Shown in pieces: positions 6,501-24,016 of a stretch of DNA of 49,488 bases. Positions within the stretch are counted from its first letter, which is position 1; each line of letters begins with the position of its first letter. The stretch is taken from positions 1 to 49,488 of the IMG/VR virus record IMGVR_UViG_3300020051_001011; one strand, 5' to 3'. Source of the stretch: a virus. The notes under the pieces were generated by a model. It saw nothing but the letters and a program-made list of their open reading frames with translations. It had not been told where the DNA came from and ran no database searches. The position numbers were made by a program, and so were the translations under genes.

Positions 6501-9500
6501 GCAATAAACCAAGTAGGAAGTCCTTATGCAATTCAAACTGAAGTAACACCTGTATTTAGAGACGAAAATGTACAAATTATTGGTGATGCTAACTCAGCAT
6601 TAAGAGTCGTAGCACTAATGGATTATGCTATTGCACTTATTAATGACGGTGTTTCAGCATTTGACACAGTTACAATTGTTGACGTAACATCTAATGTATT
6701 AACGTCAGATGCAGAACATAACTTTAAAATAGGCGATGAAGTATCATCAGTGAGCGGATTTGATACAGTCACAGGCGGTCAAATTTATTATATTAAGAGT
6801 GTTCCAAATACTACTACTTTTACAATATCAGAAACATTTAATGGTACAACACATGTACTATCAGATAGTACTAGTACAGAAACACTAATAGTTAATAAAA
6901 GTAATCCAGATATTAGTAGTGTTAATGCTGTCATTAAGCAACAAAATCTCAACTTATCAGGATCTAAGGAAATTATTAAAACTGCTATTACTCAATATAT
7001 TGCAGATAATTATCCAACACTAGTGTACGACGAAGATAAGTGTGCAAGAGACGTTGGCTACATTGTTGATGCTATTGGTTACGATATGATGGTCGATAGT
7101 AACTATCGCACAATTGCAGCAGCAAGTGCATATTATCGCGGTGCGCAAGCAGATCTAGTACTAGGTGCTCAGAAAACTGCAACTGTACAATCATACAGAG
7201 AACTTAAAAATAAAATAGCATCATACATTACCGCTTCTCCAACAGCAGTAAAACGAGCAAATAGCTTAATGGATATTATCATTAATATGCTTGACAAAGG
7301 TGTTAATGAAACTCCGGAAACTACTGGCACTATTGCCTACTACAACAACGTTGAAGTTGCAAAAGGTGTTGAAATTCTTAAAGCTAACAAAAATTTCTTA
7401 GCAAATGAAGCAACTGCTTGGGTAACACAAACATTTAGTAATACAGTTACAGCAGTGTCAAATGGTAATAACGCAGTTCAAACATCAACGGCACATAATT
7501 TAGCAGTTAATGATCCTGTAGTGTTTAGTGATACAATTGATGAATTGACTCCGGGCATTACTTATTATGTAAAGGCGATATTAGCACCTGAGCAATTCAC
7601 TGTAAGCACAACTATTGGTGGCACAGAAGTAACTATTGTAACAGGCGGAGTAACAGAAGCTACAGTTACATACTCGTTTGATCCTGTTGCATGCCGTAGA
7701 GACATGATTCGTTATGTTGAAGCTGTAGCACATGATCTACAGTATCCAGGAAACCACCATGCATTAAGAGCTGCAATATTGTACTTGAATGCAGTAGAAG
7801 GTTCAGAGCGCTCAGACATGTTCTATGTACGTAACTCAACTGGTGTTCGTAATATGACACTAAGCGGTCTAAGAGGAAACTTAACTGAACTTAATGAGTT
7901 TGGTACAAGACGTCCAACAGCAGGTGCATATGTATCGCTTGATCCAGGATTTGGTCCATGGGATACAGAAGCATGGATTACTAATAAATCTCCATACATT
8001 CAGAACGTAACTAACTTTGGTGTTGGTTGTGTTGGTAACAAGATTGATGGTGCATTACACGCTGGCGGCAACAGATCAACAGTTAGCAACGACTTTACAC
8101 AAGTACTATCAGATGGTATCGGTGTATGGTGTAGCGGTAATAACTCACTAACAGAACTTGTGTCTGTGTTCGCATACTACAACTATTCAGGATACTTAGC
8201 CGACTTAGGTGGACGTATTCGTGCTACAAACGGTAACAGTTCATATGGTACATATGGTACGATTGCTGAAGGCACAGATACCGGTGAAGTTCCATTGTAC
8301 TGTGAAGTTGATAACTTGTCACAAGAAGCATACATATCAGAAGTTATTACTGATGGTGATCAACAAGTATTCCGCTTCGAATTTGATAACGCTGGTCGCG
8401 ATTACACTAACGCACAATATGCAATTAGTGGATCAGGCTTTAACGCAACAACTATTGCTGATGAAACACGTGACGGTGCAATATTTGAAACACGCTTAAT
8501 TGACTTAGATGACGGTAACGAGACAGGTGGTGCAGATTATGTAACTGCTAAAAACGTTGCACAGGGCGGTGACTTAATTAGTGCTACTATTGCTGCTACT
8601 GATACAGCATTGCTTGGGGCATACAACGGTATGCGCATTCAGATTACAGCAGGTACTGGCGTAGGACAATATGGTAACATTTTAACATATAACAACGGTC
8701 TTAAAGTTGCTAAAGTTTATAAAGACAGCTTTGAAAACTTAACAGTTACTAACACTACAGTTACTACAAATGTATTAACAGTTGCAAGCACAGCATCATT
8801 GTATGTTGATATGCCAATTTATCTAAGCGATGACATTGGTGGATTAACTGCTGCTAATGATTACTATGTAACTGCTATAACAAGTGGAACACAGTTTACA
8901 GTTAGCGACGAAGAAGGCGGAGCAGATGTAACGCTGTCAACTGCTACAGGTAGTGTAACACTATATGCTGCGGGATGGGATCATGTTATTCCAGGAACTC
9001 CAATTGCTGCTGGTCTAGATCTAACATCTGGCTACACAATTGAGCCTCGCATTAAGTTTACAGGTCCAGGCTATGTTGCTACAGCAACAACTACAAGTGG
9101 TACAGAATCAATTAGAGCTGCATCATATGCTGATGGACACTTTGTTGCTCTACAGAATGGCGGAACAGCTACTTATGCATCTGCTGATGGCAAAACTTGG
9201 ACATCAAGTGGTGCATTAAGTACAAGTGCTAACTGGGCAGATGTTGCGTTTGGTGGCGGCACAGGAGCAACAGCTCGTGTTATTATTGGTGGATTAGGCG
9301 GATCAGGCGCAGTGCTTGAGGCCGAACTAGGAGAATTAAACAGCATTGGCTTACCAGGACCGACGCAGATTAAACAGATTAATGTTATTAATGGCGGTAA
9401 AGGTTTCTCAAGTGCTCCAACGATAACTATTACTCCAACATCAGGCGGCGGTGGCGCAAGTGCAGTATGTACAGTTCTTAATGGAGTGATTCAAGAAGTA

Positions 9501-11741
9501 ATCATGACAAGTACAGGTGCTGGTTATGGCGCAGTTCCAACTATTACTGCTGAAACTGATAAAGTTACTGAAATCATTGTTGACTCGTTTGGTAATGGTT
9601 ACAAAACTACACCTACTGTTACAATTAGTGGCGGAGGCGCATCAGAATCTGCAACAGCAACAGCAGTTATGGATAACGAAGGCGTAGCAAGTATCACTAT
9701 TGATACAGTAGGCGCTGGATACACTAGTGTTCCTACTATTGAAATTATTGATGCAAGCGCCAAGTTTGTAGCTATTGCAAACGGTAGTACAAGTAACGCT
9801 AACATAACACTTGCTAATGCTAAGTCAGACAATACATGGAGTGCAGGAACTGCATTGCCAAACAGCAACTTTACTTCTGTAACTTATGGTGACGGAGTGT
9901 ATGTTGCAGTAGGCGGCGCAGGCGGATCAGGAAGTGCTGCAACATCAACAGATGGCAGTGCTTGGGTTTCAAGAACTAACATTACATTAAGTGCTGGTAC
10001 ATTTAGCGGTGTAGCATATGGCGCAGCTACTTATGTTGCAATCAACACAGGTGGCAATAAAGTAGCAAAAAGTGCTAACGGCATTACTTGGGCAGAAGGT
10101 GGTACATTACCATCCTCAAATACTTGGGCTAGTGTTGCATACGGAAATGGTAGATTTGTTGCTATTGCAACAGGTAGCAGAGAAGTTGCAGTTAGTTACG
10201 ACAAAGGTGCAACTTGGGTTGCATCACCAGCAGGATTACCAACAGCAGGCAACTGGTCTAAAGTTAAATATGGACAAGGTTTGTTCATAGCAGTAGCCGA
10301 AGGTACTGCGGTGTGTGCAACAAGTACAGACGGTATTACATGGAATGAACAAGCACTTGGTTCAAGCGCAGCGTGGAACGGGCTAGTGTTTGGTAATCCA
10401 AATAGCAAGCCAATCTGGGCAGCATTTACTAATGCAGCAAATAATGTTGTTAACTATGTTGAAACTGGTGCTAAAGCATTAGGTAGACTAGTAGAAACTG
10501 ATGGTTCTATTATTTCGACTAGAATGGTTGAACCTGGTTCAGGTTATCCAAACGGAACAGTAGTAAGTACTACTAGTGCGAACACAATCACTTTAGATTC
10601 AACAGCACGTTTAGTACAGAATCAACCAATTACATTTACTAATGTTACTGATTCAGGATTAGTAAATGAAACACCATACTATATTAACACTATACCAAGT
10701 GGAACAACTATTACTGTAAGTCTAATTGCAGGTAGTGGCACACCGGTTGCTATTGAAACTACTACATTAACTGGAGCAACATTTAAAGCAGGGCCGATTG
10801 CAACTATTACTGATCCTAACTCAACTATTGATGCTCCGGTTCATGCAAGACAAGGCAATGGCGCACTTGCTAACCCAAGCTTCACTAACAGAGGTTCAGG
10901 TTATCAAACAGCAACAGTTGAAGTAGCAGGCGATGGCTATTCAGACTTGTTCCAGGCAAGTACATTTATTGCTGTACGCGGATTGTTTGACTTACCGATA
11001 CCTGGTTCAAACATTGTGTTTGCAAGCAAAACTGGTACTTGGTACAAACTAGTAGCAGTGAGCGGCATACTTGGAAGTCAAGGCAACTATAATGCAACTT
11101 TCCAAATTAGTCCTGCATTAACTATACTTGATGCACCTCTAGACGGTACATTAGTTACTACAACTAATAAGTACTCGCAAGTACGTCTAACAGGACATGA
11201 CTTCTTGTACATTGGTACTGGTAACCAAGCTGATACTAACTATCCGTATGTTGATATTACTACAGCTAACCAAGATGTGCAACAGCTATCAAGTGGTGGC
11301 GGACGAGTGTTCTTTACAAGTACTGACCAAGACGGTAACTTTAACGTTGGTGGATTGTTCGGTGTTCAACAGAGTACTGGTACAGCGACATTGGATGCAG
11401 ATGCGTTTAACTTAGCAGGTCTACAATCGTTGCAGCTTAACGGTATTGGACTTGGTATTGGTTCAGCTGTTATTACTCAGTTCAGTACAGATCCATTCTT
11501 TACTGCAAATAGTGATAACATTGTTCCAACGCAACGTGCGATTAAATCGTACATTACTGCACAGATTGGTGGCGGTCAGTCTAGTTTGAACGTTAACACA
11601 CTAACTTCAGGTGTTGTGTTTATTGCAAACGATGAAATAACAACTACCAACGGCGGACAGCTAAATATTAAAGCGAAGATGAACTTTACAGGTGGAATTG
11701 ATGGTGCTCCAGTTGCACTAGGATTCTTCTTAGCAAGATAA
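573..11741 (+). CDS. Giant multidomain virion structural protein (3722 aa)
   Basis: This is an enormous modular protein, probably an extended tail or fibre-like virion component. Residues ~10-330 and ~430-460 hold seven repeats of the WxxxxxYxxGDxVxxxGxxY type, like carbohydrate-binding module 5/12. Residues ~665-2390 hold ten divergent copies of a module with the signature CxRDxGYxxDAxxYD. Around 2440-2600 is a Gly/Asn-rich region that looks like a beta-helix. Residues ~2840-3280 carry about six BNR/Kelch-like strands with S-x-DG-x-x-W motifs, separated by Gly-rich repeats. The last ~150 residues match the C-terminus of the gene at the window start. It follows a late-type promoter and a GGAG ribosome site (positions 562-565). 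Role in host glycan recognition is inference from the repeat types. No frameshift was noticed over 11 kb. Confidence 0.85.
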   Translation: MAEFKLGRIRFVWQGDWVASTTYVADDVISFGGKSYICVKNHTSSTEFNTDFTDVIPKWEIVSDGTSWQGDWEPEVEYAPGDVVKYGANVYICENGHVSATFDSPTFLGLEENLADWTEFATSFDFKGDWATSTRYKLSDLVRYGGYVYVCNTAHVSAATSILGLENDQANWTLFSDGIVYTGEWVTATRYRINDLIKYGGNIWIATTAHTSSNFEADESNWEAFVEGFQFEDSWNNISNYQIGDTVTYGGYVYVAKTNNTNSQPTSNPDDWDVFTTGFSFQGDWTVLSSYKVGDVVRLGGSTYVALTDNTGNEPPDATYWSRLNSGINWTYSTETFLQVQGSNVVGSGSGARFDVVKSKSVYTITVSTGFAGTGYATNDVIKLLGSSIGGTSPANDAEVTVTGVSGGTVTSVSWTGYSSTWKTGTDYHVGDVVIYGASSFIAVTKHTAATGNRPDNDLTADYWNLLTLGSEALSLTTEGDLVYYGENGPTRLPIGVDGQILRATDGFPAWANYGLIDNVVYVGPLGANEPAPASGLTVDKPWASVRYALEQVRDGYLNPQAKHILQNNKEFLMKEVTNWISYNYRVNITAATSGTQVFTTTSTANLDPGMPIVFNGTLGGVTAGTIYYVESAVSDTEFRISDVQNSGIPRVLTNGTGTMQGNLAYDTVKCERDTGYIVDALIYDISRGGTLKTVTAAKSYFTPAGNEYINGTFGSQALQTVQAYTYLKSIVASVLSNEQPLSYQSLNGVALEDRSVQIIDFTLEAEATGISKAANLIDIITTGISAGSATAIPTVTNPNTTVFIKTGTYNEILPIIVPEYTAIVGDELRTSVIQPAPAVPLLVNDKSKTTSALNRIKDLIPDLMQNIAIAPTSGNTASQAYINGYGGTTTSTNRLNTGIELISDILENGISVANAYEVSNPTPTSGTGNASDSGYANAVTQLTANKAFLQAEITAWIADQVLNETAPFTSAFTYDAVACARDTGYIIDAIIYDLTYGGNLETTVAARAYFVEGSPVYGAGEKDETLAAYARLKTIVGEVILETDVVLSPDNGELQNKDNDAGSAGAASKAEALVQEVYDTIDTDGTLASEVAADITWVPTTLTTVNTAIVAAKATIQAGAISWINENYPDLTYDEAKCSRDLGYIIDALRYDIMFGSDFRSLKAGMAYRRGIASTGIVLDSQLEPTIGSIDYVREQIKAITTGTTKVAESTALIADILENGSGSIPTSFVIPDPTGYDTGFFNARRLIKLNKDFLVAEVEAYMTDNYNALWISLDSDQKASCLRDMEYILDALEYDLTYRGNLETIVAARAYYVDGVFQEPSDQKTAALAVQARLADIIDNIAIGNTAGWTKSSSNAATQDITGTAGSAGAAAFAQDRINEIYNTIDTGDTPALISPSLTWVDSALVDLKSVIDARRSVIQQGAIDYINFIYPDLTYDEAKCARDVGYIVDAIAYDVLFGSDFRSAKAGMAYRRGITSTEYVIDNQLAATLSTISFIDEALTQLTEGSTSEVGTTTAALAVASKAETIKTVVQSGLTAVPAYVLPTPTNYNTANLVDTAYATTSNTTGVTTTYGNAADQLAVNSAFIQLEVRKWLEDSNNGFDTFWATLGADAQDKCIRDVGYIIDAIRYDLTYGGNTQSLIAGSAYYSNFVLTIGANELPATLGAYDRMRDVIGWVIAEDTGSWTKSPGNTLTQDVSGTAGNAASIEFAEDRVDDVLDWINNGEPNATIEIATDWAGLEVKTSYDALVSRRYEIIEDTVYWVEKNWQKLQYNQETCRRDTGLMTDAVIRDMLTGSNFASIKAGMAYYRILASTAIVTNNQLDASVGAVNFLKQKVKHIAATTASAHAELIINDITAYIDGGKKPTLRIKALSTVDENDAAAAITIWDNKEFIQAEVLAFIAAEYPLVEFSQEKCIRDVGLLIDALRYDLVYGGTSATQEAAMAYYVGTTLQIDENDKVATIAAYEWVKFLASDLAINQVGSPYAIQTEVTPVFRDENVQIIGDANSALRVVALMDYAIALINDGVSAFDTVTIVDVTSNVLTSDAEHNFKIGDEVSSVSGFDTVTGGQIYYIKSVPNTTTFTISETFNGTTHVLSDSTSTETLIVNKSNPDISSVNAVIKQQNLNLSGSKEIIKTAITQYIADNYPTLVYDEDKCARDVGYIVDAIGYDMMVDSNYRTIAAASAYYRGAQADLVLGAQKTATVQSYRELKNKIASYITASPTAVKRANSLMDIIINMLDKGVNETPETTGTIAYYNNVEVAKGVEILKANKNFLANEATAWVTQTFSNTVTAVSNGNNAVQTSTAHNLAVNDPVVFSDTIDELTPGITYYVKAILAPEQFTVSTTIGGTEVTIVTGGVTEATVTYSFDPVACRRDMIRYVEAVAHDLQYPGNHHALRAAILYLNAVEGSERSDMFYVRNSTGVRNMTLSGLRGNLTELNEFGTRRPTAGAYVSLDPGFGPWDTEAWITNKSPYIQNVTNFGVGCVGNKIDGALHAGGNRSTVSNDFTQVLSDGIGVWCSGNNSLTELVSVFAYYNYSGYLADLGGRIRATNGNSSYGTYGTIAEGTDTGEVPLYCEVDNLSQEAYISEVITDGDQQVFRFEFDNAGRDYTNAQYAISGSGFNATTIADETRDGAIFETRLIDLDDGNETGGADYVTAKNVAQGGDLISATIAATDTALLGAYNGMRIQITAGTGVGQYGNILTYNNGLKVAKVYKDSFENLTVTNTTVTTNVLTVASTASLYVDMPIYLSDDIGGLTAANDYYVTAITSGTQFTVSDEEGGADVTLSTATGSVTLYAAGWDHVIPGTPIAAGLDLTSGYTIEPRIKFTGPGYVATATTTSGTESIRAASYADGHFVALQNGGTATYASADGKTWTSSGALSTSANWADVAFGGGTGATARVIIGGLGGSGAVLEAELGELNSIGLPGPTQIKQINVINGGKGFSSAPTITITPTSGGGGASAVCTVLNGVIQEVIMTSTGAGYGAVPTITAETDKVTEIIVDSFGNGYKTTPTVTISGGGASESATATAVMDNEGVASITIDTVGAGYTSVPTIEIIDASAKFVAIANGSTSNANITLANAKSDNTWSAGTALPNSNFTSVTYGDGVYVAVGGAGGSGSAATSTDGSAWVSRTNITLSAGTFSGVAYGAATYVAINTGGNKVAKSANGITWAEGGTLPSSNTWASVAYGNGRFVAIATGSREVAVSYDKGATWVASPAGLPTAGNWSKVKYGQGLFIAVAEGTAVCATSTDGITWNEQALGSSAAWNGLVFGNPNSKPIWAAFTNAANNVVNYVETGAKALGRLVETDGSIISTRMVEPGSGYPNGTVVSTTSANTITLDSTARLVQNQPITFTNVTDSGLVNETPYYINTIPSGTTITVSLIAGSGTPVAIETTTLTGATFKAGPIATITDPNSTIDAPVHARQGNGALANPSFTNRGSGYQTATVEVAGDGYSDLFQASTFIAVRGLFDLPIPGSNIVFASKTGTWYKLVAVSGILGSQGNYNATFQISPALTILDAPLDGTLVTTTNKYSQVRLTGHDFLYIGTGNQADTNYPYVDITTANQDVQQLSSGGGRVFFTSTDQDGNFNVGGLFGVQQSTGTATLDADAFNLAGLQSLQLNGIGLGIGSAVITQFSTDPFFTANSDNIVPTQRAIKSYITAQIGGGQSSLNVNTLTSGVVFIANDEITTTNGGQLNIKAKMNFTGGIDGAPVALGFFLAR
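600..1935 (+). repeat. Seven CBM5/12-like repeats in the giant structural protein
   Basis: Six nearly contiguous ~55-60 residue repeats (to about 1550) and one separated copy (about 1838-1935). Each has a Trp, then Y-x-x-G/S-D-x-V, then G-G-x-x-Y. This spacing resembles chitin/cellulose-type carbohydrate-binding modules of families 5 and 12. Confidence 0.7.
2563..7775 (+). repeat. Ten-copy CxRDxGYxxDAxxYD module array
   Basis: Ten copies of a module whose core is Cys-x-Arg-Asp-x-Gly-Tyr-x-x-Asp-Ala-x-x-Tyr-Asp, followed by Gly/Ser-Gly/Asp-Asn and an A-x-x-Y motif. Cores start near 2569, 3495, 3970, 4407, 4885, 5416, 5890, 6304, 7024 and 7678. The copies are diverged in protein and DNA. Alternating subtypes are visible (YGGNLET-like versus FGSDFRS-like), suggesting duplication of a two-module unit. 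Confidence 0.75.
9115..10430 (+). repeat. BNR/Kelch-like repeats in the giant structural protein
   Basis: About six repeats of ~45 residues with F/Y-V-A-x-x, then S-x-D/N-G-x-x-W and W-x-x-V-x-[YF]-G. The pattern is typical of sialidase-type or Kelch-like beta-propeller blades. The first copy (about 9120-9260) is separated from the others (about 9765-10400) by Gly-rich A-x-A-x-V repeats. Confidence 0.6.
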
Positions 11742-12091: not shown

Positions 12092-14089
12092 ATGGCACGT
12101 TATAATACAGCACCTCAAACATTAGAAGTTACGGGTGCGCAGACATTTACTTACGCATTTACCGGAGGAATAATTTCCTTAACTGGTACCCCGGGCTATA
12201 CTGTAACGCTTGTTAGTCCAGTATTCTTCCCCGGTAGTAAGCAAACATTTTACAATGCAACTGCTGGTAGTATTACACTAGAAACAGCAGCAGGACAAAT
12301 TATTGGTAACGGTGTTACAATTGGCGTTAGCATTGAGATTCCAACTAACTCTACTTATACTTTAACTTCGGATGGCACTAACTATGTTTTAACAAGTGCA
12401 TTGTCGGGTCCTACTACGTTTGAATTACCAGTAACATTTAATGATTTACTAAACGCAGATGGCAAAGTAGAACTTAATCCGTTAGATAACAATGTTGAAA
12501 TCAAACCAACTGGGACAGGTTTAGTTGACATTAGTCCACAAAGTTCAGTATCGATCCAACCTGGTGCACAAGTTACTATTAGACCAACTGGCAATGCTAG
12601 CATTAGTTCAGCAAGCGGCACAGTTAGTGTAGGTGATGTAGGTAAGACTACAACTATGCTTGGTAATATTAGTGCAATATCAAATGCGCAAACAGTAACA
12701 TTAAGTCCAACAGGAGCAGGCAGTAGCGTAACTATCGATCCAGCTGGCAATACTAGTATTGATGCAGGCGGAACATTAACTATTAGTTCTACTACACTTG
12801 GCACAATTAGTAACATGAGTATCGGTAGTACTAATCCTAGTACTGGTGCATTTACGTCAGTTACTGCTCCAACTATTACTGCTACAAGTTCTGGTGCATC
12901 AACAAGTACATCATCTGGTGCATTAATTGTAACAGGTGGATTAGGTGTAGGCGGCCGCATAAATGCATCAGACTTTACAGGAACAGTTGGTCAAAATACT
13001 CGTAATGCAGGTTTCTTTACAAGCATAGAAGCAAACAGTAGTGTAGGTTTTACAGCTAACACTGCATCAACTAACACTACAAGTGGTACACTTGTTGTAA
13101 CAGGTGGATTGGGTGTAAGTGGCGCAATTTATGCAGGTAGTATTCAAAATACTCCAATTGGTAATACTTCACGTAATAGCGGTGCATTTACTACACTTGC
13201 ATCAAACTCAACTGTAGACTTTACCGCAACAACAGAAGCAAGTAGCACAACAGTTGGTGCAGTTCAAATTGACGGTGGTGTTGCTGTTGCTAAACGTATA
13301 TACGCTGGTGGCGGTTTCCAAGGTGCTGTAGGTAACGTTAGTGCAAACACTGGTGCATTTACAACACTAACTGCAAGTTCAACAGTTACACTAAGCCCGG
13401 GTGCAAACGTTACACTAAGTCCAACAGGATCAGGTACTGTAACACTATCACCAGCAGGTGGCGGCTCAATCAACAACATGAGCATTGGTGCTACAACTGC
13501 TTCTACTGGTAGATTTACATCAGGCACATTTACTAGTAACGTAAGCGTTAGCGGCACATTAAGTGCAAATGGTAACGTAACCTTAGGTAATGCTACATCT
13601 GATAGTCATACAGTTAACGGTAGTTTAACAATTTCAAGTGGATTTAATCACAACGTTACAGGGTATACTCAAATTGCCCGTGGTACTACAGCACAACGCG
13701 GAACTGGTGTAGACGGTGCTTTACGTTACAACACAGATATTGATTGTATTGAATTTAGTGACGGAACGTCATGGCGTGCAGCAGGACAAGGTTTCTACTA
13801 CAGTGATGTAACATCAAACATAACAGCAGCTATTTGGAACTGTTACTTCGTTGATACTTCAGCAGCGGCAAGAACTATTACACTACCAGGTTCTTCAGGA
13901 CTTATCAAAGGTGATACTATTAGATTCTTAGATTTAAGAAAAACATTTGATTCAAACGCACTAACTATTGCACGAAACGGTAATCCGATTCAAGGCGACG
14001 CGGCCAACTTAACAGTAAATACAGAGGGTGCTGCATTTGATCTTATATGGCACGGTACAACTTACGGATGGAGAATCTTCTCAGTCTAA
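12092..14089 (+). CDS. Repeat-rich tail fibre-like structural protein (665 aa)
   Basis: The protein is Ser/Thr/Gly-rich and repetitive. Residues ~130-260 hold short PTGxGxVxISP-type beta repeats. Residues ~260-460 hold three or four ~55-residue units, each containing a TGGLGVxG motif, an N-x-x-x-A-F-T-x-L motif and an x-Y-A-G segment. The C-terminal ~130 residues include RYNTDIDCIEFSDGTSW, a pattern often found at the ends of phage fibres, and a compact terminal domain. The repeats and position among structural genes support a long fibre. It lies between a small structural gene and the three cysteine-rich adhesin-like genes, so it may form the shaft that carries one of them; that link is inferred. 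Confidence 0.75.
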   Translation: MARYNTAPQTLEVTGAQTFTYAFTGGIISLTGTPGYTVTLVSPVFFPGSKQTFYNATAGSITLETAAGQIIGNGVTIGVSIEIPTNSTYTLTSDGTNYVLTSALSGPTTFELPVTFNDLLNADGKVELNPLDNNVEIKPTGTGLVDISPQSSVSIQPGAQVTIRPTGNASISSASGTVSVGDVGKTTTMLGNISAISNAQTVTLSPTGAGSSVTIDPAGNTSIDAGGTLTISSTTLGTISNMSIGSTNPSTGAFTSVTAPTITATSSGASTSTSSGALIVTGGLGVGGRINASDFTGTVGQNTRNAGFFTSIEANSSVGFTANTASTNTTSGTLVVTGGLGVSGAIYAGSIQNTPIGNTSRNSGAFTTLASNSTVDFTATTEASSTTVGAVQIDGGVAVAKRIYAGGGFQGAVGNVSANTGAFTTLTASSTVTLSPGANVTLSPTGSGTVTLSPAGGGSINNMSIGATTASTGRFTSGTFTSNVSVSGTLSANGNVTLGNATSDSHTVNGSLTISSGFNHNVTGYTQIARGTTAQRGTGVDGALRYNTDIDCIEFSDGTSWRAAGQGFYYSDVTSNITAAIWNCYFVDTSAAARTITLPGSSGLIKGDTIRFLDLRKTFDSNALTIARNGNPIQGDAANLTVNTEGAAFDLIWHGTTYGWRIFSV

Positions 14090-14107: not shown

Positions 14108-14947
14108 ATGGCATCATATTCAAGTTATAAACGAATTATATCAGACCAAGTCGATAACGGCATAGTATCTGAAGCAAAGCTATCTCCAGGTACAGGTTTA
14201 CAATACGGAGTTACTTGGGTGTATAGCTCACGAGCATTTGCATGTCACCAGTGTGCAAACGCTGGTGGTTGTGTATGCCAAGCATGTGGAAGATGCTGTC
14301 TATGGACAGTGCCTGCAAATGTAACTCGTGCTACATTCGAAATTTGGTCAGGTGGAGGCGGCGGAGCAGGTCACACCTGTTGTAACTGCTGTTCGTTCTC
14401 AATTGGCGGAGCAGGTGGTAACTACGCAATTAAAACGATCGCTGTAACTCCAGGCTGGACATACACAGCATGTGCCGGCGGAAGCTGGCCCTGTTCAAAA
14501 TCACATACTTGTAGTGCAGCTATGGGATGTCGTTCTTACGTAACAGGCAATAATCTAAGCAATTTCTGTGTAACAGGCGGTTGTGGTGGTTGGATGTGTA
14601 ATGGTGATGCTTGGGGACCAAGACATCATACAAGCGGTTGTGCTAACTGTAATATTTGTGGAATATTTGGCGCAGATATGGGAATAATGGGTTCTGTCGG
14701 TGGCAGAATGGGACAAACCTCTTGTCGTTGTGCCGGTGTAACAAGTTTTAGCGGCACTGCACCATTCATTGGTAAGTGGGACGGTACTCAAAATACTGAA
14801 GCATGGTGTTCATGTGGTTGTTATGTGAATTGGCCAGCAGGCGGCGGTGCAAGCGGCGGCAGCAGCTATTGTGGTAATTACGCAAAATGTTGCGCAGGCG
14901 GCAGCGGCCAAGGCGGCAGCGGCTTAGTTAAAATAACGTATTATTAA
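14108..14947 (+). CDS. Cysteine/glycine-rich adhesin-like tail protein, paralogue 1
   Basis: 279 residues, about 29 of them Cys by hand count. The N-terminal ~35 residues (motif DQVDNGIVSEAKL) resemble short fibre-attachment segments. Next come a Cys cluster (ACHQC...GGCVCQACGRCC, residues ~45-64), a beta segment ending in WSGGGGGAG, a CCNCC cluster, GGAGGNYA, and further Cys pairs among Gly-rich loops, ending in a Gly-rich tail and VKITYY. The FEIWSGGGGGAG...GGAGGNYA...GWTYT layout resembles the glycine-rich distal domain of many phage tail proteins, but the Cys density is unusual. Paralogues follow at 14963 and 15817. It is probably a receptor-binding fibre tip, by inference from position and glycine-rich layout. 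Confidence 0.75.
   Translation: MASYSSYKRIISDQVDNGIVSEAKLSPGTGLQYGVTWVYSSRAFACHQCANAGGCVCQACGRCCLWTVPANVTRATFEIWSGGGGGAGHTCCNCCSFSIGGAGGNYAIKTIAVTPGWTYTACAGGSWPCSKSHTCSAAMGCRSYVTGNNLSNFCVTGGCGGWMCNGDAWGPRHHTSGCANCNICGIFGADMGIMGSVGGRMGQTSCRCAGVTSFSGTAPFIGKWDGTQNTEAWCSCGCYVNWPAGGGASGGSSYCGNYAKCCAGGSGQGGSGLVKITYY
14339..14408 (+). repeat. 70-bp near-identical block, copy 1 of 3
   Basis: This block, starting GAAATTTGGTCAGGTGG and ending CTCAATTGG plus two bases, recurs at 15194-15263 and 16048-16117. Only two differences were seen between this copy and the other two. It encodes the WSGGGGGAG-HTCCNCC segment of the adhesins. Confidence 0.8.
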
Positions 14948-14962
14948 GGGAAGAAATAGATA

Positions 14963-15802
14963 ATGGCAACGTACGGAAGTTATAGAAAAATTAGCCAGAC
15001 AATGATCCCGGATAATTCAATTGATCAGGTAAAATTACAAGCAGGCGCAGCAAATAAATCTGGTATATTATGGGTGTATAGCTCACGAGCATTTGCATGT
15101 CAAGAATGTTCTAATGCAGGCGGATGTGTATGCCAAGCATGTGGCAGGTGCTGTTTATTTACAGTTCCTACAGGTGTAACAAAACTTACGTTTGAAATTT
15201 GGTCAGGTGGGGGCGGCGGAGCAGGTCACACCTGTTGTAACTGCTGTTCGTTCTCAATTGGTGGTGCCGGAGGCAACTACGCAATTAAAACAATATCAAC
15301 GAGTCCTGGTTGGACTTACTCAGTGTGTGCAGGGGGCTCGTGGCCTTGTTCAAAATCACATACATGTGTTGCTGGACAAGGATGTCGTTCTTACGTAACA
15401 GGATGTAACCTAAGCAATTTCTGTGTTACAGGTGGTTGTGGAGGCATTATGTGTAATGGTGATGCTTGGGGTGAAAGAACGTTGAACTCATGTGCTAACT
15501 GTAATATTTGTGGAATATTTGGTGCAGATTATGGAATAATGGGCACAACAGGAAGAAAATTAGGTCACGGTGGTTGTCACTGTAGAGGAGCAGACGGTAG
15601 CTTTACAGGAACAGCACCACTTATTGGAAAAATGCAACACACCGCAGCAACAGAAGCATGGTGTTCATGTGGTTGTTACGTAAACTGGCCAGCAGGTGGC
15701 GGAATGAGTGGCGTAAGCTCGTACTGTAATAACAATGCAAAATGTTGTGCAGGTGGCATAGGTCAAGGCGGAAGCGGAATAGTAAAAATTACTTATGCAT
15801 AA
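14963..15802 (+). CDS. Cysteine/glycine-rich adhesin-like tail protein, paralogue 2
   Basis: 279 residues with about 30 Cys. It is colinear with the preceding paralogue: N-terminal attachment-like segment (IPDNSIDQVKLQAG), Cys cluster at ~45-64, WSGGGGGAG, CCNCC, NLSNFCVTGGCGG, CANCNICGIFG and a terminal CCAGG and VKITYA. It differs mostly in residues ~1-40 and ~165-235, which would be expected of variable binding loops. It starts 15 bp after the previous stop, with a GGGAAG ribosome site. Nothing shows whether Cys residues are disulphide-bonded or bind metal. Confidence 0.75.
   Translation: MATYGSYRKISQTMIPDNSIDQVKLQAGAANKSGILWVYSSRAFACQECSNAGGCVCQACGRCCLFTVPTGVTKLTFEIWSGGGGGAGHTCCNCCSFSIGGAGGNYAIKTISTSPGWTYSVCAGGSWPCSKSHTCVAGQGCRSYVTGCNLSNFCVTGGCGGIMCNGDAWGERTLNSCANCNICGIFGADYGIMGTTGRKLGHGGCHCRGADGSFTGTAPLIGKMQHTAATEAWCSCGCYVNWPAGGGMSGVSSYCNNNAKCCAGGIGQGGSGIVKITYA
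15194..15263 (+). repeat. 70-bp near-identical block, copy 2 of 3
   Basis: Identical over its whole length to the copy at 16048-16117 by direct reading, although flanking coding sequence is clearly diverged. Confidence 0.8.
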
Positions 15803-15816
15803 CAAGGAAAAAATAA

Positions 15817-16653
15817 ATGGCAACGTATGACAGCTATAAACAGCTAAAAACAGACCAAATACCAGATAATTTTGTTAATTCGAATCAATTAGCAAATGGT
15901 GCAGGTGTTAGATATAACACTGTTTGGATATATAATAGTAGAATGATGCAATGTCACCAGTGTGCAAGCGCTGGAGGATGTTGTTGTCAATATTGCGGCG
16001 CATGCTGTTTATTTACTGTGCCATCAAAAGTATGTAGAGTTACTTTTGAAATTTGGTCAGGTGGGGGCGGCGGAGCAGGTCACACCTGTTGTAACTGCTG
16101 TTCGTTCTCAATTGGTGGCGCTGGAGGCAACTACGCCATTAGAACGATATCAACAAGCCCTGGATGTACATATACCGTGTGTGCTGGAGGAACTTGGCCT
16201 TGTAATAAATCGCATACTTGTAGTGCAGGTATGGGATGTCGTTCATACGTAAATGGACACAATCTAAGTAACTTCTGTGTTACTGGTGGTTGTGGCGGAT
16301 GGATGTGTAATGGTGATGCTTGGGGACCAAGACATCATACACAGGGGTGTGCTAACTGTAATATTTGCGGAATGTTTGGCTCTGATTTTGGAATGATGGG
16401 TACTGTCGGAATGAAACCAGGTCACGGCGGGTGTCACTGTTGGAGGGTTATGCAATGGACAGGACAAGCTCCGATTATTGGATTATCAGGAGCAAGTGGC
16501 GCATCTGAATCTTGGTGTACTTGTGGTTGTTACGCAGCACCTCCAGGAACAGGTGGAACGAGTGGCCTAAGCTCATATTGTGGTAATAACGCAAAATGTT
16601 GTGCAGGCGGCCAGGGCGGCGGCTCAGGAATAGTAAGAATTACATATGCTTAA
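15817..16653 (+). CDS. Cysteine/glycine-rich adhesin-like tail protein, paralogue 3
   Basis: 278 residues with about 32 Cys, the most of the three. The architecture is as in the two preceding paralogues, with IPDNFVNSNQLANG near the start, a denser first cluster (GGCCCQYCGACC) and an additional Cys after it. The loop at residues ~165-190 (GDAWGPRHHT, CANCNICG) matches paralogue 1 better than paralogue 2, while other segments match paralogue 2 better, so segments appear shuffled. Ribosome site AAGGA lies just upstream. It is the last gene of the adhesin run before a late-type promoter and the chaperone-like gene. Confidence 0.75.
   Translation: MATYDSYKQLKTDQIPDNFVNSNQLANGAGVRYNTVWIYNSRMMQCHQCASAGGCCCQYCGACCLFTVPSKVCRVTFEIWSGGGGGAGHTCCNCCSFSIGGAGGNYAIRTISTSPGCTYTVCAGGTWPCNKSHTCSAGMGCRSYVNGHNLSNFCVTGGCGGWMCNGDAWGPRHHTQGCANCNICGMFGSDFGMMGTVGMKPGHGGCHCWRVMQWTGQAPIIGLSGASGASESWCTCGCYAAPPGTGGTSGLSSYCGNNAKCCAGGQGGGSGIVRITYA
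16048..16117 (+). repeat. 70-bp near-identical block, copy 3 of 3
   Basis: Identical to the copy at 15194-15263; encodes the same Gly-rich and CCNCC segment. Confidence 0.8.
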
Positions 16654-16691: not shown

Positions 16692-17402
16692 ATGCCAGAA
16701 GAAAATGAAGTAGTAATCTCAGAAGTTGAAATGTGTGAAACAACTTTCACTTATAAAATCCCTGACGATTTTAGAGAAAACACATTTGAAAAAGGTTATA
16801 CTGATACATTCACTTATCGCGGCCCGCGTTACCTGACATTTGAAATTGACAAAGATACAGGTAAAGAAAGCGGATGGTGTTTGGTATATCCTGCAGAACT
16901 CGAGAGGCCTACTCCTCTTAATGTTGAAAGAGTTTGCATCGATTGTTCACTTGAAGAAAACGGTCTACTATGTGAAATAGCTAATGATCAGGGAGATTCG
17001 ACGCAAGTTGAGTTTAGAGCAAACCGTACTTGGGTTCCGTACTTCACAAGCCCGGAAGGATATCTAAATATTGAAAAACCAACAGAATATGAACCTCGTG
17101 ACGTATATGATGAATTTAACATTACATACGACTTTGATACTAAAGAGTTCCATGTTCCAGTACATGATTGGGCTACAGACATTAAAATAGATATGACATG
17201 GGACGACATTAAAAAAGTACGTAACAAAGCACTTGCAGATACTGATGGTGCGTTTTCAGACGATATGCCTGAAGAATTAAAAAATAGATGGAAAACATAC
17301 AGACAGTTGTTAAGAGACTTGCCAACTGCATTAGCAGAGTTCCCTCCGTATATTGCAGCACAAATGTTCCCTACAATGCCTGTGGATGATCCTGAAGTAT
17401 AA
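16692..17402 (+). CDS. Protein with tail-fibre assembly chaperone-like C-terminus (236 aa)
   Basis: The C-terminal third (residues ~165-225) has the layout of the phage tail assembly chaperone family (Phage_tail_APC type): a helix with K-V-R-N-K-A-L-x-x-T-D, an acidic linker, then RWKTYRQLLRDLP and a Pro-rich end. The first ~160 residues are acidic and beta-rich with no family that I recognise. Such chaperones usually sit directly after the fibre or adhesin gene they help fold, and this gene directly follows the three adhesin paralogues, which supports the assignment. It has its own late-type promoter and is closed by a terminator. Confidence 0.65.
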   Translation: MPEENEVVISEVEMCETTFTYKIPDDFRENTFEKGYTDTFTYRGPRYLTFEIDKDTGKESGWCLVYPAELERPTPLNVERVCIDCSLEENGLLCEIANDQGDSTQVEFRANRTWVPYFTSPEGYLNIEKPTEYEPRDVYDEFNITYDFDTKEFHVPVHDWATDIKIDMTWDDIKKVRNKALADTDGAFSDDMPEELKNRWKTYRQLLRDLPTALAEFPPYIAAQMFPTMPVDDPEV

Positions 17403-17502: not shown

Positions 17503-18201
17503 ATGAAAAAATATTTTATAGACGAAATAGAAACGTTTGCAGTTAATGAAGATTTAAAAGTAAATGTTGAAACATTTGGTCCAAATGAAACTAAAGTTGT
17601 TACTGTAGATAACTTTTATAAAAATCCAGACCAAGTTAGAGATTTAGCATTAAGAATTCCGCCGTCTATAAATGAAAGAATTCGCACAAGGTTACCTGGT
17701 CCCAGGATAAATGCATTTTACTTAATGGATCATATGGGACCTATATTTGACAATATACTACAAACAGTATATCCAGAACAACATTTTCAATTTCCTCCTA
17801 ATCATATTAACGATGTGTTTCGTGATTCTACATTTATTGTTAATATTATGCATACCAAATTTTTAGAGCCGCGCCCGCCGCACATAGATTGCCCATATCC
17901 TACAGCATTTGCAGCAATGGTATTTTTAAATACTCCGGAAGAATGTAAAGGTGGAACAGGATTTTATTCATTTGATGGGCAAACAGGCGGAACTGAATTT
18001 GGCTTATATAAAGCTGATAACGGGAAACCTACCGACATATATGTAAATGGTGATATGGGTGATTGGAAAATGCATCACATGACAGAAATGAAATATAATC
18101 GAATGGTTATATATCAAGCAAACATTTATCATGCAGCATACATAACTGATGACATGTATAATGACGATGTTTATAGATTAAATCAAATGTTTTTTATATA
18201 G
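17503..18201 (+). CDS. DUF6445-like putative Fe(II)/2-oxoglutarate oxygenase (232 aa)
   Basis: The fold and motif layout match the DUF6445 group of 2OG-Fe(II) dioxygenase-like proteins, which often accompany flavin-dependent halogenases in bacteria. The putative iron ligands are H127 and D129 (PPHIDCP) and H210 (NIYHAAY), and R225 (YRLNQMF) could bind 2-oxoglutarate. Between them is a VFLNTPEECKGGTGFYSF segment typical of these enzymes. It starts 100 bp after the chaperone-like gene, beyond a terminator and a late-type promoter, so it begins a new operon with the SGNH-like, oxygenase and FkbM genes. The substrate is unknown. Confidence 0.75.
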   Translation: MKKYFIDEIETFAVNEDLKVNVETFGPNETKVVTVDNFYKNPDQVRDLALRIPPSINERIRTRLPGPRINAFYLMDHMGPIFDNILQTVYPEQHFQFPPNHINDVFRDSTFIVNIMHTKFLEPRPPHIDCPYPTAFAAMVFLNTPEECKGGTGFYSFDGQTGGTEFGLYKADNGKPTDIYVNGDMGDWKMHHMTEMKYNRMVIYQANIYHAAYITDDMYNDDVYRLNQMFFI

Positions 18202-19120: not shown

Positions 19121-19720
19121 ATGGCAGAACCAGCACAAATATTTTCATCATTATTGTTTAGGTCTTTTTTTACTATCGAAAATAATACTCGAGATGCTAT
19201 AATTAACAAATTAAAAAGCAAAAAAGATATTTCATTAATGGAAAATGCACCATTAGGAAATTATACTGATTTTTATAACGATAACAATATAATAGACGAT
19301 CCTCTATTAAAAGATGTAAAAGATTTTATTTTAACTGAAGTGAATTCTGTCAATAACTTTGCTGGATTTTTAGAACCAATTAACTATCTAAATTCTTGGT
19401 TTAGTATTATAGAAAAGTACGGATATCACGAAGCACATACGCATCCTGATTGTTTGTGGAGTGCCGTATATTATCTACAAGCAGAACATACTGATGCACC
19501 TATATGTTTTTTAAATAAAAATATTATCGATACAGGTTGGGGCATGGGAGTTAAATCTATTAAAACTGAGTTTAATTCTAATCAAGTTAGTGTACAACCA
19601 GAAACAGGAATGCTATTAATATTTCCAAGTTATCTTTTGCATAAAGTTGATCAACAAAAAACTGATAATGAACGAATAATGATAGCAATGAATTTTAGCA
19701 ATAAACATCAAGGAGAATAA
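19121..19720 (+). CDS. Putative 2OG-Fe(II) oxygenase (199 aa)
   Basis: The layout matches the PF13759-type putative 2OG-Fe(II) oxygenases common in marine phages. H106 and H108 (HEAHTHPD) and H174 (YLLHKVD) are candidate iron ligands, and R185 (NERIMIAMNF) a candidate 2-oxoglutarate ligand. The core beta-strands SAVYYL and GMLLIFPSYL flank them. The family usually has HxD or HxH as the first pair; here it is HxH followed by PD. An AGGA ribosome site precedes the ATG. It is the third gene of the operon beginning at 17503. Substrate not predictable. Confidence 0.7.
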   Translation: MAEPAQIFSSLLFRSFFTIENNTRDAIINKLKSKKDISLMENAPLGNYTDFYNDNNIIDDPLLKDVKDFILTEVNSVNNFAGFLEPINYLNSWFSIIEKYGYHEAHTHPDCLWSAVYYLQAEHTDAPICFLNKNIIDTGWGMGVKSIKTEFNSNQVSVQPETGMLLIFPSYLLHKVDQQKTDNERIMIAMNFSNKHQGE

Positions 19721-19721
19721 A

Positions 19722-20369
19722 ATGGGACCAGAAGGCAGCAATTTAAAAATATCAGAAAATGGTCAAGATTTTTTTGCACTTGATCGTAGTGCATATACAG
19801 AAAATGGTTTTTTTGTAGATATCGGAGCATCAGATGGTATTACAGCAAGTAATACATTTATCTTAGAAAAATTTTACAAATGGAGAGGTATTTGTGTAGA
19901 TCCAAATCCTGCATTTCAGCAAAGCCTAATGAACTGTAGAGATAACTTTGTTAGTACATTGTGCGTATACAACGAGACTGGTAAAATATTACCTTTTAAG
20001 TTTTGTGTAGATGAAAACCAATTTTACGGATGGAATTTTAGATCAGGATTAGAAAAGCATCTTGGCACTATTGATACAGATATTGATAAAAGTTTTATGA
20101 CTATTAATGTATTGTCTATTACTTTAAATGATTTATTAGCGTTATATCAAGCCCCTACAGACATAAACTATATTAGTATTGACACCGAAGGCAGCGAATA
20201 CGAAATATTAAAAACATTTGATTTTAAAAAATATAATGTAAAATGTTTTACAATTGAACACGAATTTACCAGTAATCGTCAATTGATTCACGATTTAATG
20301 ATTAAAAACGGATACAACCTTTTTACAGATTTTAATACTGAAAACGAAGACTGGTATTTTAAAAGTTAG
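19722..20369 (+). CDS. FkbM-family SAM-dependent methyltransferase (215 aa)
   Basis: The SAM-binding motif I is visible as FFVDIGASDG at residues ~29-38, followed by the acidic ribose-binding CVDPNP. The FkbM-specific segment LNDLLALYQAP followed by ISIDTEGSEYEILK is present at residues ~135-165. FkbM enzymes methylate sugar or polyketide hydroxyls, so an O-methylation of a glycan or small product is likely, inferred from family. The start follows the preceding stop by 1 bp with a GGAG ribosome site. Its last 11 bases overlap the convergent halogenase gene, so no terminator separates them. Confidence 0.85.
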   Translation: MGPEGSNLKISENGQDFFALDRSAYTENGFFVDIGASDGITASNTFILEKFYKWRGICVDPNPAFQQSLMNCRDNFVSTLCVYNETGKILPFKFCVDENQFYGWNFRSGLEKHLGTIDTDIDKSFMTINVLSITLNDLLALYQAPTDINYISIDTEGSEYEILKTFDFKKYNVKCFTIEHEFTSNRQLIHDLMIKNGYNLFTDFNTENEDWYFKS

Positions 20370-21840
20370 GCCAAGTACGCATAGTCCGTAATACTTCTAA
20401 CATTGTTTTATGCGGTATAGTAGTATACGGTGCGTTTGCGTTTTCAGTAATAGTATGCTCTGCTTCTAACTGTTTGTCATACGGCACTCGCATTTTATAT
20501 TCATGTGCAATATTATTAATGTCGAATAACCCTAAACCGTGCATTATTAAAATATAGTGGAAATGACTAAACAATATTTTGTCAGTAACTTTAGAAAAAT
20601 CTTTTTCAGAAGGAAGTGTGTTTTTCCATTTACTAAGATTTGAAGTCAGTGAATCTGGTAATTCAGTTTCTGATACAGCTTTCCAAAAATCTGTATCAGT
20701 TCGATTTCCTAAATAATGTAAAATAACAAAATCTCTTATATTTGTTAATATGTCATTGCAATCTGCATTATAATCTTTTATGCTGGTATCGTTGTAATTT
20801 ATAAGATGTTCAGTTAACAAAAATGCTTGTTGTATTGAGGTTCCGATAGAGCTTGCTTCTAACGGTTCTACAAAACTTGCACTAAGTCCGATTGCAACAC
20901 AATTTTTAATCCATGTATCTTTCAATGCTCCTGGATCAAAATTTATGTGTTTACTAATTTCTATTTCTCGACCAAAATATTTGTTAACTTCGGCATGTGC
21001 TTCGTCTGCTGTGATAAAGTCACTATCAAATATATAACCGTTTCCGTATCGTCCCCACACTGGCAATCTAAACATCCACCCAGCATCCATTCCTTGTGCA
21101 AGTGTCCACAAAGGTATTTCTTCATCTTTTTCAAATTCAATTGGAAAAACTATTGCAGATTTCATTTTTAAGTATTTAGAATATGACTCCCATTCACACC
21201 CTAACTCGTTCATTAATACTCGGCGAAACCCAGTACAATCAATAAAAAAATCTGATTCGTATAATTGTTGTTTGCCTTCTAAACTAACAATTCCATTTTC
21301 GTTTGAATTAACATTAATAATTTCGTCGTCAATGATGTTTATATTATAATCATTACTTAAATTTTCTAAGAATGTATTAAGTTTATTTGTATTAAAATGA
21401 TATTGTTGTACTTGAGTAGATTCTTGTCCTAAGAACCATACATTTGCTCTACTGTGCCAAGCAAGCGGACTTGCTAACTCTTTTGGACTTTTATTTTGAC
21501 TAATTTGATGTCCGTACATATAAGGATAGCCATTGTGAGTAATATTAAATCCATCACCGATACTTTGTAAGTAATCTTCGCCGCCCCAATTTTTAAACAT
21601 AATTCCTGACTTAAAGGTAGCATCTGTTTCTTGTATAAGAGTACGTGCGTTAATATTCATAAATTCCATAAACTCAGACCAGTGTTCTGTTGATCCTTCA
21701 CCGACACCGATTATACCGATATCAGATGATCGTATAACTGTTACATTAATTTCTGGAAATGACTTCTTTAGTATGAGTGCAGATACTAATCCAGCTGTAC
21801 CGCCTCCGAGTACTGTTATACTGTTTATATGTTTATTCAT
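20359..21840 (-). CDS. Flavin-dependent (tryptophan-type) halogenase 1 (493 aa)
   Basis: It belongs to the FAD-dependent tryptophan halogenase family, like the viral halogenase VirX1 of a marine cyanophage. The FAD motif GGGTAG is at residues 12-17. K77 (DATFKSGI) sits where the catalytic lysine of PrnA/RebH is, and E328 (VEPLEAS) corresponds to the catalytic Glu near the halide site. The diagnostic WxWxIP motif is altered to WMFRLP (255-260). An EGSTEHW segment replaces the usual GEGT sequence. It is expected to use FADH2, oxygen and halide to form hypohalous acid; no flavin reductase is seen in the window. It is a lone gene facing the FkbM gene, with a late-type promoter 5 nt before its ATG. 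Confidence 0.88.
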   Translation of the reverse strand: MNKHINSITVLGGGTAGLVSALILKKSFPEINVTVIRSSDIGIIGVGEGSTEHWSEFMEFMNINARTLIQETDATFKSGIMFKNWGGEDYLQSIGDGFNITHNGYPYMYGHQISQNKSPKELASPLAWHSRANVWFLGQESTQVQQYHFNTNKLNTFLENLSNDYNINIIDDEIINVNSNENGIVSLEGKQQLYESDFFIDCTGFRRVLMNELGCEWESYSKYLKMKSAIVFPIEFEKDEEIPLWTLAQGMDAGWMFRLPVWGRYGNGYIFDSDFITADEAHAEVNKYFGREIEISKHINFDPGALKDTWIKNCVAIGLSASFVEPLEASSIGTSIQQAFLLTEHLINYNDTSIKDYNADCNDILTNIRDFVILHYLGNRTDTDFWKAVSETELPDSLTSNLSKWKNTLPSEKDFSKVTDKILFSHFHYILIMHGLGLFDINNIAHEYKMRVPYDKQLEAEHTITENANAPYTTIPHKTMLEVLRTMRTWPNF

Positions 21841-21845
21841 ACTGA

Positions 21846-21853
21846 TATTTATA
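21846..21853 (-). promoter_or_regulatory. Perfect late-promoter octamer directly before halogenase 1
   Basis: Reading the minus strand this is TATAAATA followed by TCAGT and the ATG at 21840. With T4 geometry transcription would start on the A of the start codon. Confidence 0.6.
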
Positions 21854-21888
21854 AGAAGCCATATCTATACAGTGTAAACCCGATACCT

Positions 21889-21896
21889 TATAAATA
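21889..21896 (+). promoter_or_regulatory. Perfect late-promoter octamer upstream of GT9-like gene
   Basis: TATAAATA lies 63 nt before the ATG at 21960, divergent to the late-type promoter of halogenase 1. Confidence 0.5.
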
Positions 21897-21909
21897 ATTT
21901 TGAAAATGC

Positions 21910-21938
21910 TTGCTCTATACATCTAATAGTGTTATAAT
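21910..21938 (+). promoter_or_regulatory. Possible sigma-70 promoter for the GT9-like operon
   Basis: A perfect -10 TATAAT (21933-21938) lies 17 bp after a weak -35 TTGCTC (21910-21915). It would start a transcript about 15 nt before the start codon, ahead of an AAGGAG ribosome site (21949-21954). Confidence 0.45.
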
Positions 21939-21959
21939 GAATAAAATTAAGGAGTTCTA

Positions 21960-22955
21960 ATGTCAAGACCAAAGGCGTATTTTATAAACGGAGGTGCAGG
22001 CCGCGTTATCAGTTCAATTCCTGCATTTGAAAAACTTGCAGAAACTGATGAAGATTTTATTATTGTATGCGAAGGCGGCATGGACTTTTACAAAGGACAT
22101 CCTACACTGCATAATCGTGCATACGATAATTGGCACAAAGGACTGTTTCAAGAACACTTAAAACATCGTGATATTGTAAGCCCAGAACCATATCGTGTTT
22201 GGGAGTATTATAATCAAAAATGTAATCTTGCTCAAGCATTTGACATTGCTATTAACAATAAAGGTGTAAGAGAATTACAAGACCCTAAAATTGTTTTAAA
22301 TCAAATAGAGATGGTATCAGGTTTTAACATTGTACAAGAAGTACGTGCAAAGACTGGTTTTGATAAAGTATTAGTAGTACAGCCGTTTGGTCGCGGAATT
22401 CAAAATATGGGAGAAATGACAATTGATCCTACTGCTCGAAGCATGCATTTAAACAGTGTTATTAATATAGTAAACGATCTTAAAAAAGAATATGCAATTA
22501 TTTTAATGAGCGAATTTCCTGTAGCATTTGAAGAAAAAGATACTGGAAAGTTTCCTGTAGCAATGCCTCAGATTCCAGATCTACGTGTATGGTCGAGTGT
22601 TATAGATTGTTCAGATCACTTTTTAGGAGTAGACAGTGTCGGTCAACATATTGCAAAGAGCTTAGGAAAAACAGCAACGGTGATTACAGGATCTACGTTC
22701 CCTGTCAATATTAGCTACCCTGGTTCGGATACATTTGATATCATTGACATTGGTGAAGGAAAACGTGTATATGATCCTATTCGTCTTACTATGGAAGATG
22801 AAGTTAATAGAGCAAATGATGCTGTAATGGATATGAATAAAGAACAAACACAAGCAGTATTGCATAGTGTAAGAAAACGCTTAGGAAGATCTACAAAATT
22901 TACTGGACAGTATGTTCCTCCTAACGAAGAAGACAATAGTTGCTGCTCAGTATAA
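21960..22955 (+). CDS. GT9 (heptosyltransferase)-like glycosyltransferase (331 aa)
   Basis: The C-terminal half has the segment DHFLGVDSVGQHIAKSLGK (~residues 219-237), which matches the conserved H/G-x-D-S-x-x-x-H-x-A-x-x-L-G motif of GT family 9, the ADP-heptose:LPS heptosyltransferases, followed by a VITGST strand that would contact the nucleotide sugar. The N-terminal Rossmann-like domain begins NGGAGRVISSIPAFEKL, which resembles the G-x-G-D-x-x-x-x-x-P segment of the family without its Asp. The end is short and Cys-containing (DNSCCSV). The link to the ADP-heptose genes on the opposite strand is inferred from context. It heads a + strand operon with its own promoters. Confidence 0.7.
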   Translation: MSRPKAYFINGGAGRVISSIPAFEKLAETDEDFIIVCEGGMDFYKGHPTLHNRAYDNWHKGLFQEHLKHRDIVSPEPYRVWEYYNQKCNLAQAFDIAINNKGVRELQDPKIVLNQIEMVSGFNIVQEVRAKTGFDKVLVVQPFGRGIQNMGEMTIDPTARSMHLNSVINIVNDLKKEYAIILMSEFPVAFEEKDTGKFPVAMPQIPDLRVWSSVIDCSDHFLGVDSVGQHIAKSLGKTATVITGSTFPVNISYPGSDTFDIIDIGEGKRVYDPIRLTMEDEVNRANDAVMDMNKEQTQAVLHSVRKRLGRSTKFTGQYVPPNEEDNSCCSV

Positions 22956-22956
22956 T

Positions 22957-23481
22957 ATGAATTATTTGTCTGAAATATACAGTTCGTTTGCATTAGATTT
23001 GCATTACAATGACTACAGACATATATTAGATTGTTTTTCATTAAATGAAAATAGTCATAGAGACAGCGGCGGATCAACAGTTTATTATAAAGACGAATTT
23101 AAATACCCTTACGAAATTGATACTAATAACAATTATATTAATTTTGTAAAACAGTCATTAACTGTATATCCTTTCCTACAAGATGTAGAGTTTTCTAAGG
23201 CGTGGTGGGTAGATTATCCACTACACTCTTATAACGGATTTCATTCGCACAATCCAGGACCTCAACTAACTTCTGTACTTTTTCTAACAACATCAGAAGT
23301 TGATGATTATAATCCGCATGAAGGATTTTTATATTCTTTAAATAATGGCGATTATAATGAGTATCGTCCAGTTGCTGGAAATCTTCATATATTTGATGGC
23401 ACTGTGTGGCACGGAACATATCCAACATTACAGCCGAGAAAAGTGTTTGTGTGTGATTTTACATATAGGTTAGCAGTATGA
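22957..23481 (+). CDS. Putative 2OG-Fe(II) oxygenase, tandem paralogue A (174 aa)
   Basis: Start chosen at the ATG at 22957, 1 bp after the preceding stop; an upstream in-frame ATG at 22912 lies inside the glycosyltransferase gene and adds residues absent from the paralogue. H96 and H98 (GFHSHNP), H152 (VWHGTYP) and R161 (PRKVFVCDF) form an H-x-H...H...R pattern of 2OG-Fe(II) oxygenases. The neighbouring gene at 23478 is a clear paralogue (shared R/S-GGST-x-x-Y, WW-V/I-DYP, AGN, HG-x-Y and RKVFV segments). The function and substrate are unknown. No strong ribosome site is visible, consistent with translational coupling. Confidence 0.65.
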   Translation: MNYLSEIYSSFALDLHYNDYRHILDCFSLNENSHRDSGGSTVYYKDEFKYPYEIDTNNNYINFVKQSLTVYPFLQDVEFSKAWWVDYPLHSYNGFHSHNPGPQLTSVLFLTTSEVDDYNPHEGFLYSLNNGDYNEYRPVAGNLHIFDGTVWHGTYPTLQPRKVFVCDFTYRLAV

Positions 23482-24008: not shown

Positions 24009-24016
24009 GAGATAAT

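Follow-up and report, generated by a model that had tools for sequence, protein, structure and literature searches.

The window, i.e., the whole 49,488-nt stretch of viral DNA analysed here, contains three consecutive ORFs on the plus strand, copy 1 (14108..14947), copy 2 (14963..15802), and copy 3 (15817..16653), which encode putative Cys/Gly-rich tip proteins of 279, 279, and 278 aa with 29, 30, and 32 Cys, respectively. Cys makes up 10.4-11.5% of the three translations and Gly 52-53 residues (~19%) per copy, and the pairwise identity among the copies is 67-73%. An earlier note on this DNA had described three tandem paralogues with about 10% Cys arranged in CxxC, CC, and CxC clusters; its coordinates, lengths, and counts were all verified, and the three motifs occur seven, four to six, and five times per copy, respectively. 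The other larger ORFs of the window do not exceed 3.6% Cys. The loci retrieved for this comparison yielded 713 distinct ORFs of 200 aa or longer. Of these, 258 contain at least 8% Cys and every one of them is a family member, with 3.7% as the highest value of a non-family ORF; hence the Cys density is not due to chance.

A tail-fibre gene (12092..14089, plus strand) encoding 665 aa with 0.3% Cys is located upstream of copy 1. It matches phrog_31104 (E 1.6e-19) at residues 562-661, and the tip probably docks to these C-terminal ~100 residues, which are of PHROG 31104 type. The fibre gene of cyanophage S-SSM7 ends in the same type of domain. Downstream of copy 3, a tail-fibre assembly chaperone of 236 aa is encoded (16692..17402, plus strand), with matches to PF16778 Phage_tail_APC (E 3.8e-7), phrog_4912 tail fiber assembly (E 7.7e-9), and phrog_9740 (E 6e-24), which probably folds or assembles the tip. 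Its structure model (pLDDT 93) gave no whole-fold match to a solved chaperone, including that of Pam3, among the Foldseek candidates, an absence that does not exclude likeness. The next gene (17503..18201, plus strand) is DUF6445/2OG-oxygenase-like (PF20043, E 3.7e-18; phrog_1644, E 6e-37), and 53 of 85 testable loci have a gene of this kind within 3.5 kb downstream of the triplet. Two 2OG-Fe(II) oxygenase genes are additionally present at 19121-19720 and 25830-26405; oxygenases near fibre genes possibly hydroxylate proteins.

Further genes of the window are of interest in their own right. A 3722-aa protein (573-11741) contains repeated segments, and its N-terminal part matches tail-fibre families. 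The region 19722-30805 comprises a sugar/surface-type cluster (FkbM methyltransferase, carbamoyltransferase, HAD phosphatase, epimerase, and a PfkB-cytidylyltransferase fusion), similar in kind to the genes beside the module in S-SSM7 and P-SSM2. The minus strand carries two genes for tryptophan halogenases (phrog_2928; 20359-21840 and 28234-29670), which may modify the virion or small molecules.

All three copies are matched near full length by the PHROG 4205 profile with E 3e-31 to 1e-33 (copy 1, 1.3e-33; copy 3, 5.5e-33). In case of PF21722 (Gly_rich_2), residues 65-279 of copy 1 are matched with E 7.3e-6 and 26.6 bits, above the gathering cut-off of 24.3, while copies 2 and 3 of the window stay below reporting; of the three S-SSM7 copies, two pass the cut-off. 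By sequence the triplet is assigned to a marine phage family without a name, PHROG 4205, at the edge of Pfam Gly_rich_2. Named relatives, annotated as hypothetical, occur in the cyanophages S-SSM7, S-SSM6a, Sf-FS3, S-CAM1, S-CAM3, and P-SSM2; scans of IMG/VR yielded 30, 79, and 7 loci, and the uncultured contigs with relatives number ~110, in agreement with the marine phage affiliation considered earlier. One of these loci, with copy 2 at 100% identity and an identical terminase, probably derives from the same virus as the window. PADLOC returned no match for the tip proteins. The three matches in genome collections are metagenome-assembled genomes (MAGs) labelled Actinomycetota, Flavobacteriales, and Rhodobacteraceae (L117-L119), each holding the same triplet. 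A cellular origin was considered and rejected, as these look like phage contigs that were probably mixed into the bins.

The AlphaFold2 single-chain model of copy 2, built from a 114-row alignment, reached pLDDT 78 and pTM 0.78. Its best solved match is the Pam3 fibre 7ypx with a Foldseek E of 3.7e-8 and a VIA Z of 18.4 over 192 residues at rmsd 2.9 (model residues 32-279), followed by the Bxb1 tail-tip protein (Z 12.1) and the ALK/LTK glycine-rich domains (Z ~8-10). Among viral models, proteins of S-CAM3 and P-SSM2 come first, then many phage glycine-rich/tail-fibre proteins, Syn9 Gp38 included. As in Pam3, a TNF-like beta-sandwich and Gly-rich loops are predicted within one chain, which bears out the glycine-rich loops noted before; the N-terminal helical shaft is absent, and the model has ~33 mostly unstructured N-terminal residues, a docking segment common to all three copies. 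Due to the fact that PDB sequence searches with the single protein and with the 114-row profile gave nothing useful, the relationship to Pam3 is one of fold only. In Pam3, three chains contribute their TNF-like and Gly-rich domains to the tip, which is folded by a trimeric chaperone in 3:3 arrangement (PMC9608196). The match to this receptor-binding-domain fold, together with the fixed site between fibre gene and chaperone, upholds the adhesin or tail-tip role suggested earlier, and we consider a tail-fibre tip very likely from fold, context, and chaperone. Three different monomeric adhesins of gp38 type capping the fibre in one genome are a most improbable alternative: S16 gp38 is a glycine-rich sandwich on top of the gp37 trimer (PMC6851490), the Pam3 authors remarked on the likeness (PMC9608196), and Syn9 Gp38 is among the viral matches, but among solved structures the trimeric Pam3 fibre matches best, with a clear Z, and the three-helix docking domain of gp38 is missing from the copy 2 model.

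The gene order is fixed. In 97 of 97 testable loci each, the triplet is flanked by the same fibre C-terminal domain upstream and by the same chaperone family downstream. Exactly three copies, and never more, were observed in 70 of 71 loci complete on both sides, many of which are near-duplicates (thinning leaves 45 distinct triplets); S-CAM3 and three MAG contigs have three copies as well. The exception is P-SSM2 with two Cys-rich copies, separated by an unrelated-looking 225-aa gene (7725-10591 of locus L003), and its relative AG-345-F15 also has two. Conservation of exactly three copies points to a three-chain tip.

Two groups, referred to as cyanophage-type and window-type, differ in the history of the copies. 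In the tree of the cyanophage-type group, the sequences of copy 2 group together in a clade of their own (29 of 30 rows), and those of copies 1 and 3 are placed in separate clades; the triplication is therefore old, with the order of the genes maintained since. Within the window-type group, copies from one locus often cluster together and are therefore regarded as partly homogenised. Copies 2 and 3 of the window share an identical 74-nt tract over the first Gly-rich loop on the plus strand (15191..15264 and 16045-16118; GGGGGAGHTCCNCCSFSIG), of which a 50-nt portion is identical in copy 1 too (14357-14406). Since only 65-69% of the codons for identical residues match overall, local gene conversion is likely to have produced this tract. 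Inter-copy distance matrices across loci correlate with r 0.80-0.96, indicating that the triplet is inherited as a set. Photosystem reaction-centre (Photo_RC) genes were found in all five cyanophage-type records searched and in none of seven window-type records, and the isolated phages nearest to the window terminase (47662-49242) are PA5oct-like Pseudomonas jumbo phages (54%); thus, the module is common to two phage lineages.

Copy number and co-divergence also bear on a second reading, in which each paralogue forms its own homotrimeric tip on the same type of fibre, resulting in mixed adhesins and broader specificity. Many phages carry several receptor-binding proteins, and the N-terminal docking segment common to all copies would suit alternative tips; moreover, gp24 of Pam3 is a homotrimer (PMC9608196). 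Alternative adhesins, however, should vary in number and not be kept at three, the copies co-diverge, and three tips would be served by one chaperone and one fibre gene. We regard this reading as unlikely, and an A:B:C heterotrimer as reasonably probable.

With regard to composition, ordinary Gly_rich_2 domains (22 domains taken from two MAGs and from a sample of 299 genomes) contain on average 0.45% Cys (maximum 1.6%) and 35% Gly. Compared to these controls, the family with ~10% Cys and ~19% Gly has about half the Gly and some twenty times the Cys, and cysteines thus appear to have replaced a part of the glycine lattice. In the copy 2 model, 20 of the 30 Cys are placed in loops, seven in strands, and three in helices. 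The pN/pS of conserved Cys codons is 0.01 versus 0.18-0.29 at other non-Gly sites, and purifying selection on conserved Cys is consequently ~20-fold stronger than on neighbouring sites. Positive selection in loops was not found, their pN/pS of 0.22 being near the 0.18 of strands. Cys parity was tried as a sign of complete pairing and gave no signal: odd and even counts are similarly frequent, both for single chains and for whole triplets. Not all Cys can therefore be paired within the chain, and some must be unpaired, bonded inter-chain between particles, or otherwise used.

Plain correlation of Cys columns mostly mirrors the split between the two groups, and tree-aware counts were used instead. 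Residues 117 and 148 (numbered as in copy 2; all copies) show a recurrent exchange of Cys and an aromatic residue, which took place at least 14 independent times; in copy 2 the two residues are Trp (15311..15313, plus strand) and Cys (15404..15406, plus strand), respectively. Cys117 occurs with Tyr, His, or Phe148 in 93 of 94 rows and Trp117 with Cys148 in 33 of 33, and both positions are Cys in none of 135 rows. The exchange accounts for 21-22 changes on the tree, and all independent pairs agree (14/14, p 1.2e-4). On one reading, one Cys is needed at this position to bond a shared third Cys, and the aromatic side chain would stack against the disulphide; alternatively, the aromatic residue and the thiol may be in contact without being bonded. 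The Cys state at residues 114, 117, and 148 by copy position revealed no fixed pattern around the three-fold axis. In three of four cases C205 and C255 were lost jointly, and Cys 90 and 232 in one group correspond to 91 and 234 in the other. Judged from the alignments, the 117/148 exchange and the paired losses favour disulphides over metal, and disulphide cross-links between at least some loops appear likely. A comparable use of disulphides is known from virions of phage Milano, which contain a wide disulphide network with 2.1% Cys in the structural proteins (PMC10811340). Of the "disulphide-stitched stalk" put forward in the earlier note, the disulphide part accordingly persists, while the stalk has to be given up, as it is encoded by the Cys-poor gene upstream.

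The same changes bear on a metal-loaded tip, in which the Cys clusters would bind zinc, iron, or Fe-S and aid binding, possibly at metal-uptake receptors. CxxC, CxC, and CHC motifs would fit such sites, and iron in T4 gp37 as well as the Trojan-horse hypothesis are precedents from the literature (PMC11705849). Published iron sites of phages are of HxH type and not Cys (PMC11705849), however, and no HxH motif occurs in the three translations; the CHC motif does not keep its His across the window-type group. If a metal were bound, its three or four ligands would be expected to change together, but no Cys/His quartet behaved in this way: gains and losses recur at single Cys sites or pairs, and one Cys repeatedly swaps with an aromatic residue. 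Metal binding as proposed in the earlier note is disfavoured for this reason and seems quite improbable, and exploitation of host metal-uptake receptors was not supported.

Taken together, we propose that the three proteins together make up a tail-fibre tip that binds the receptor. Each chain would combine an N-terminal docking segment of ~33 residues with a TNF-like beta-sandwich and with Gly-rich loops, the latter bearing most of the Cys. The paralogues would assemble as a single A:B:C heterotrimer on the homotrimeric fibre end encoded just upstream, aided by the chaperone encoded just downstream. Fixed Cys would cross-link the loops by disulphides, replacing part of the glycine lattice of ordinary tips, and the disulphides would presumably form after release from the reducing host cytoplasm. 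With loops cross-linked in this manner, the residues in between would be free to vary while the fold is retained, and such a fixed Cys frame with varying residues resembles knottin-type scaffolds. We infer the location in the virion, the heterotrimer, the disulphides, and the contact to a receptor; family, gene order, copy number, fold class, and Cys constraint were computed. The scheme as a whole is slightly favoured. Against it, P-SSM2 and AG-345-F15 carry two copies instead of three, the P-SSM2 locus representing a natural exception for the three-chain idea, and fixed A, B, and C roles are weaker in the window-type group because the copies are partly homogenised there. The frequent odd Cys counts, the link to Pam3 by fold only, and the lack of a whole-fold match for the chaperone model also weigh on the scheme. 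Only tentatively we extend it to an obligate A:B:C tip with a Cys lattice in place of about half of the Gly lattice and a knottin-like surface, in marine cyanophages as well as in the unrelated lineage with PA5oct-like terminase.

If true, a heteromeric, disulphide-locked receptor-binding tip would be a fibre-tip design of which we know no solved example. Its carriers would be T4-like Synechococcus and Prochlorococcus phages, whose host-recognition proteins are mostly unnamed; "hypothetical" genes (PHROG 4205 and 9740) would be linked to host range in a testable manner, and a model would be available for disulphide formation in particles built in a reducing cytoplasm. In the open literature searched, no description of the Cys density, the fixed triplet, or the recurrent Cys/aromatic exchange, no papers on Cys-rich cyanophage tips, and no virion proteome that covers the family were found.

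The domain class itself, a TNF-like and Gly-rich fibre tip with chaperone, is known. PHROG 4205 is the full-length family of all copies, but no function is described for it and the records searched attach no name, structure, or copy-number rule to it, and PF21722 covers the same domain span with the far lower Cys and higher Gly content of its sampled ordinary members. Pam3 gp24 (PDB 7ypx, 7yfw) with its chaperone gp25 shares the TNF-like and Gly-rich receptor-binding domains and the order of tip gene and chaperone gene. It differs in being one gene and a homotrimer versus three tandem paralogues, in a Gly-rich domain of 39% Gly for which the Pam3 paper mentions no cysteine or disulphide, and in a helical shaft within the chain versus a separate fibre gene; the trimeric tip is known from structure in Pam3, and the triplet was compared by a single-chain model. 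gp38 of S16/T2 is likewise a Gly-rich host-recognition sandwich at the fibre end with a conserved frame and variable distal segments, but it caps the fibre as a monomer, docks by a helical domain of its own, and, to our knowledge, has no Cys lattice. In Milano, disulphides also lock the phage tail, although thinly spread over sheath and baseplate and not in a Cys-dense tip. Complement C1q is composed of A, B, and C chains encoded by three tandem paralogous genes, which form a heterotrimeric TNF-like head; as an animal protein it serves as an analogy only, and homology is not claimed.
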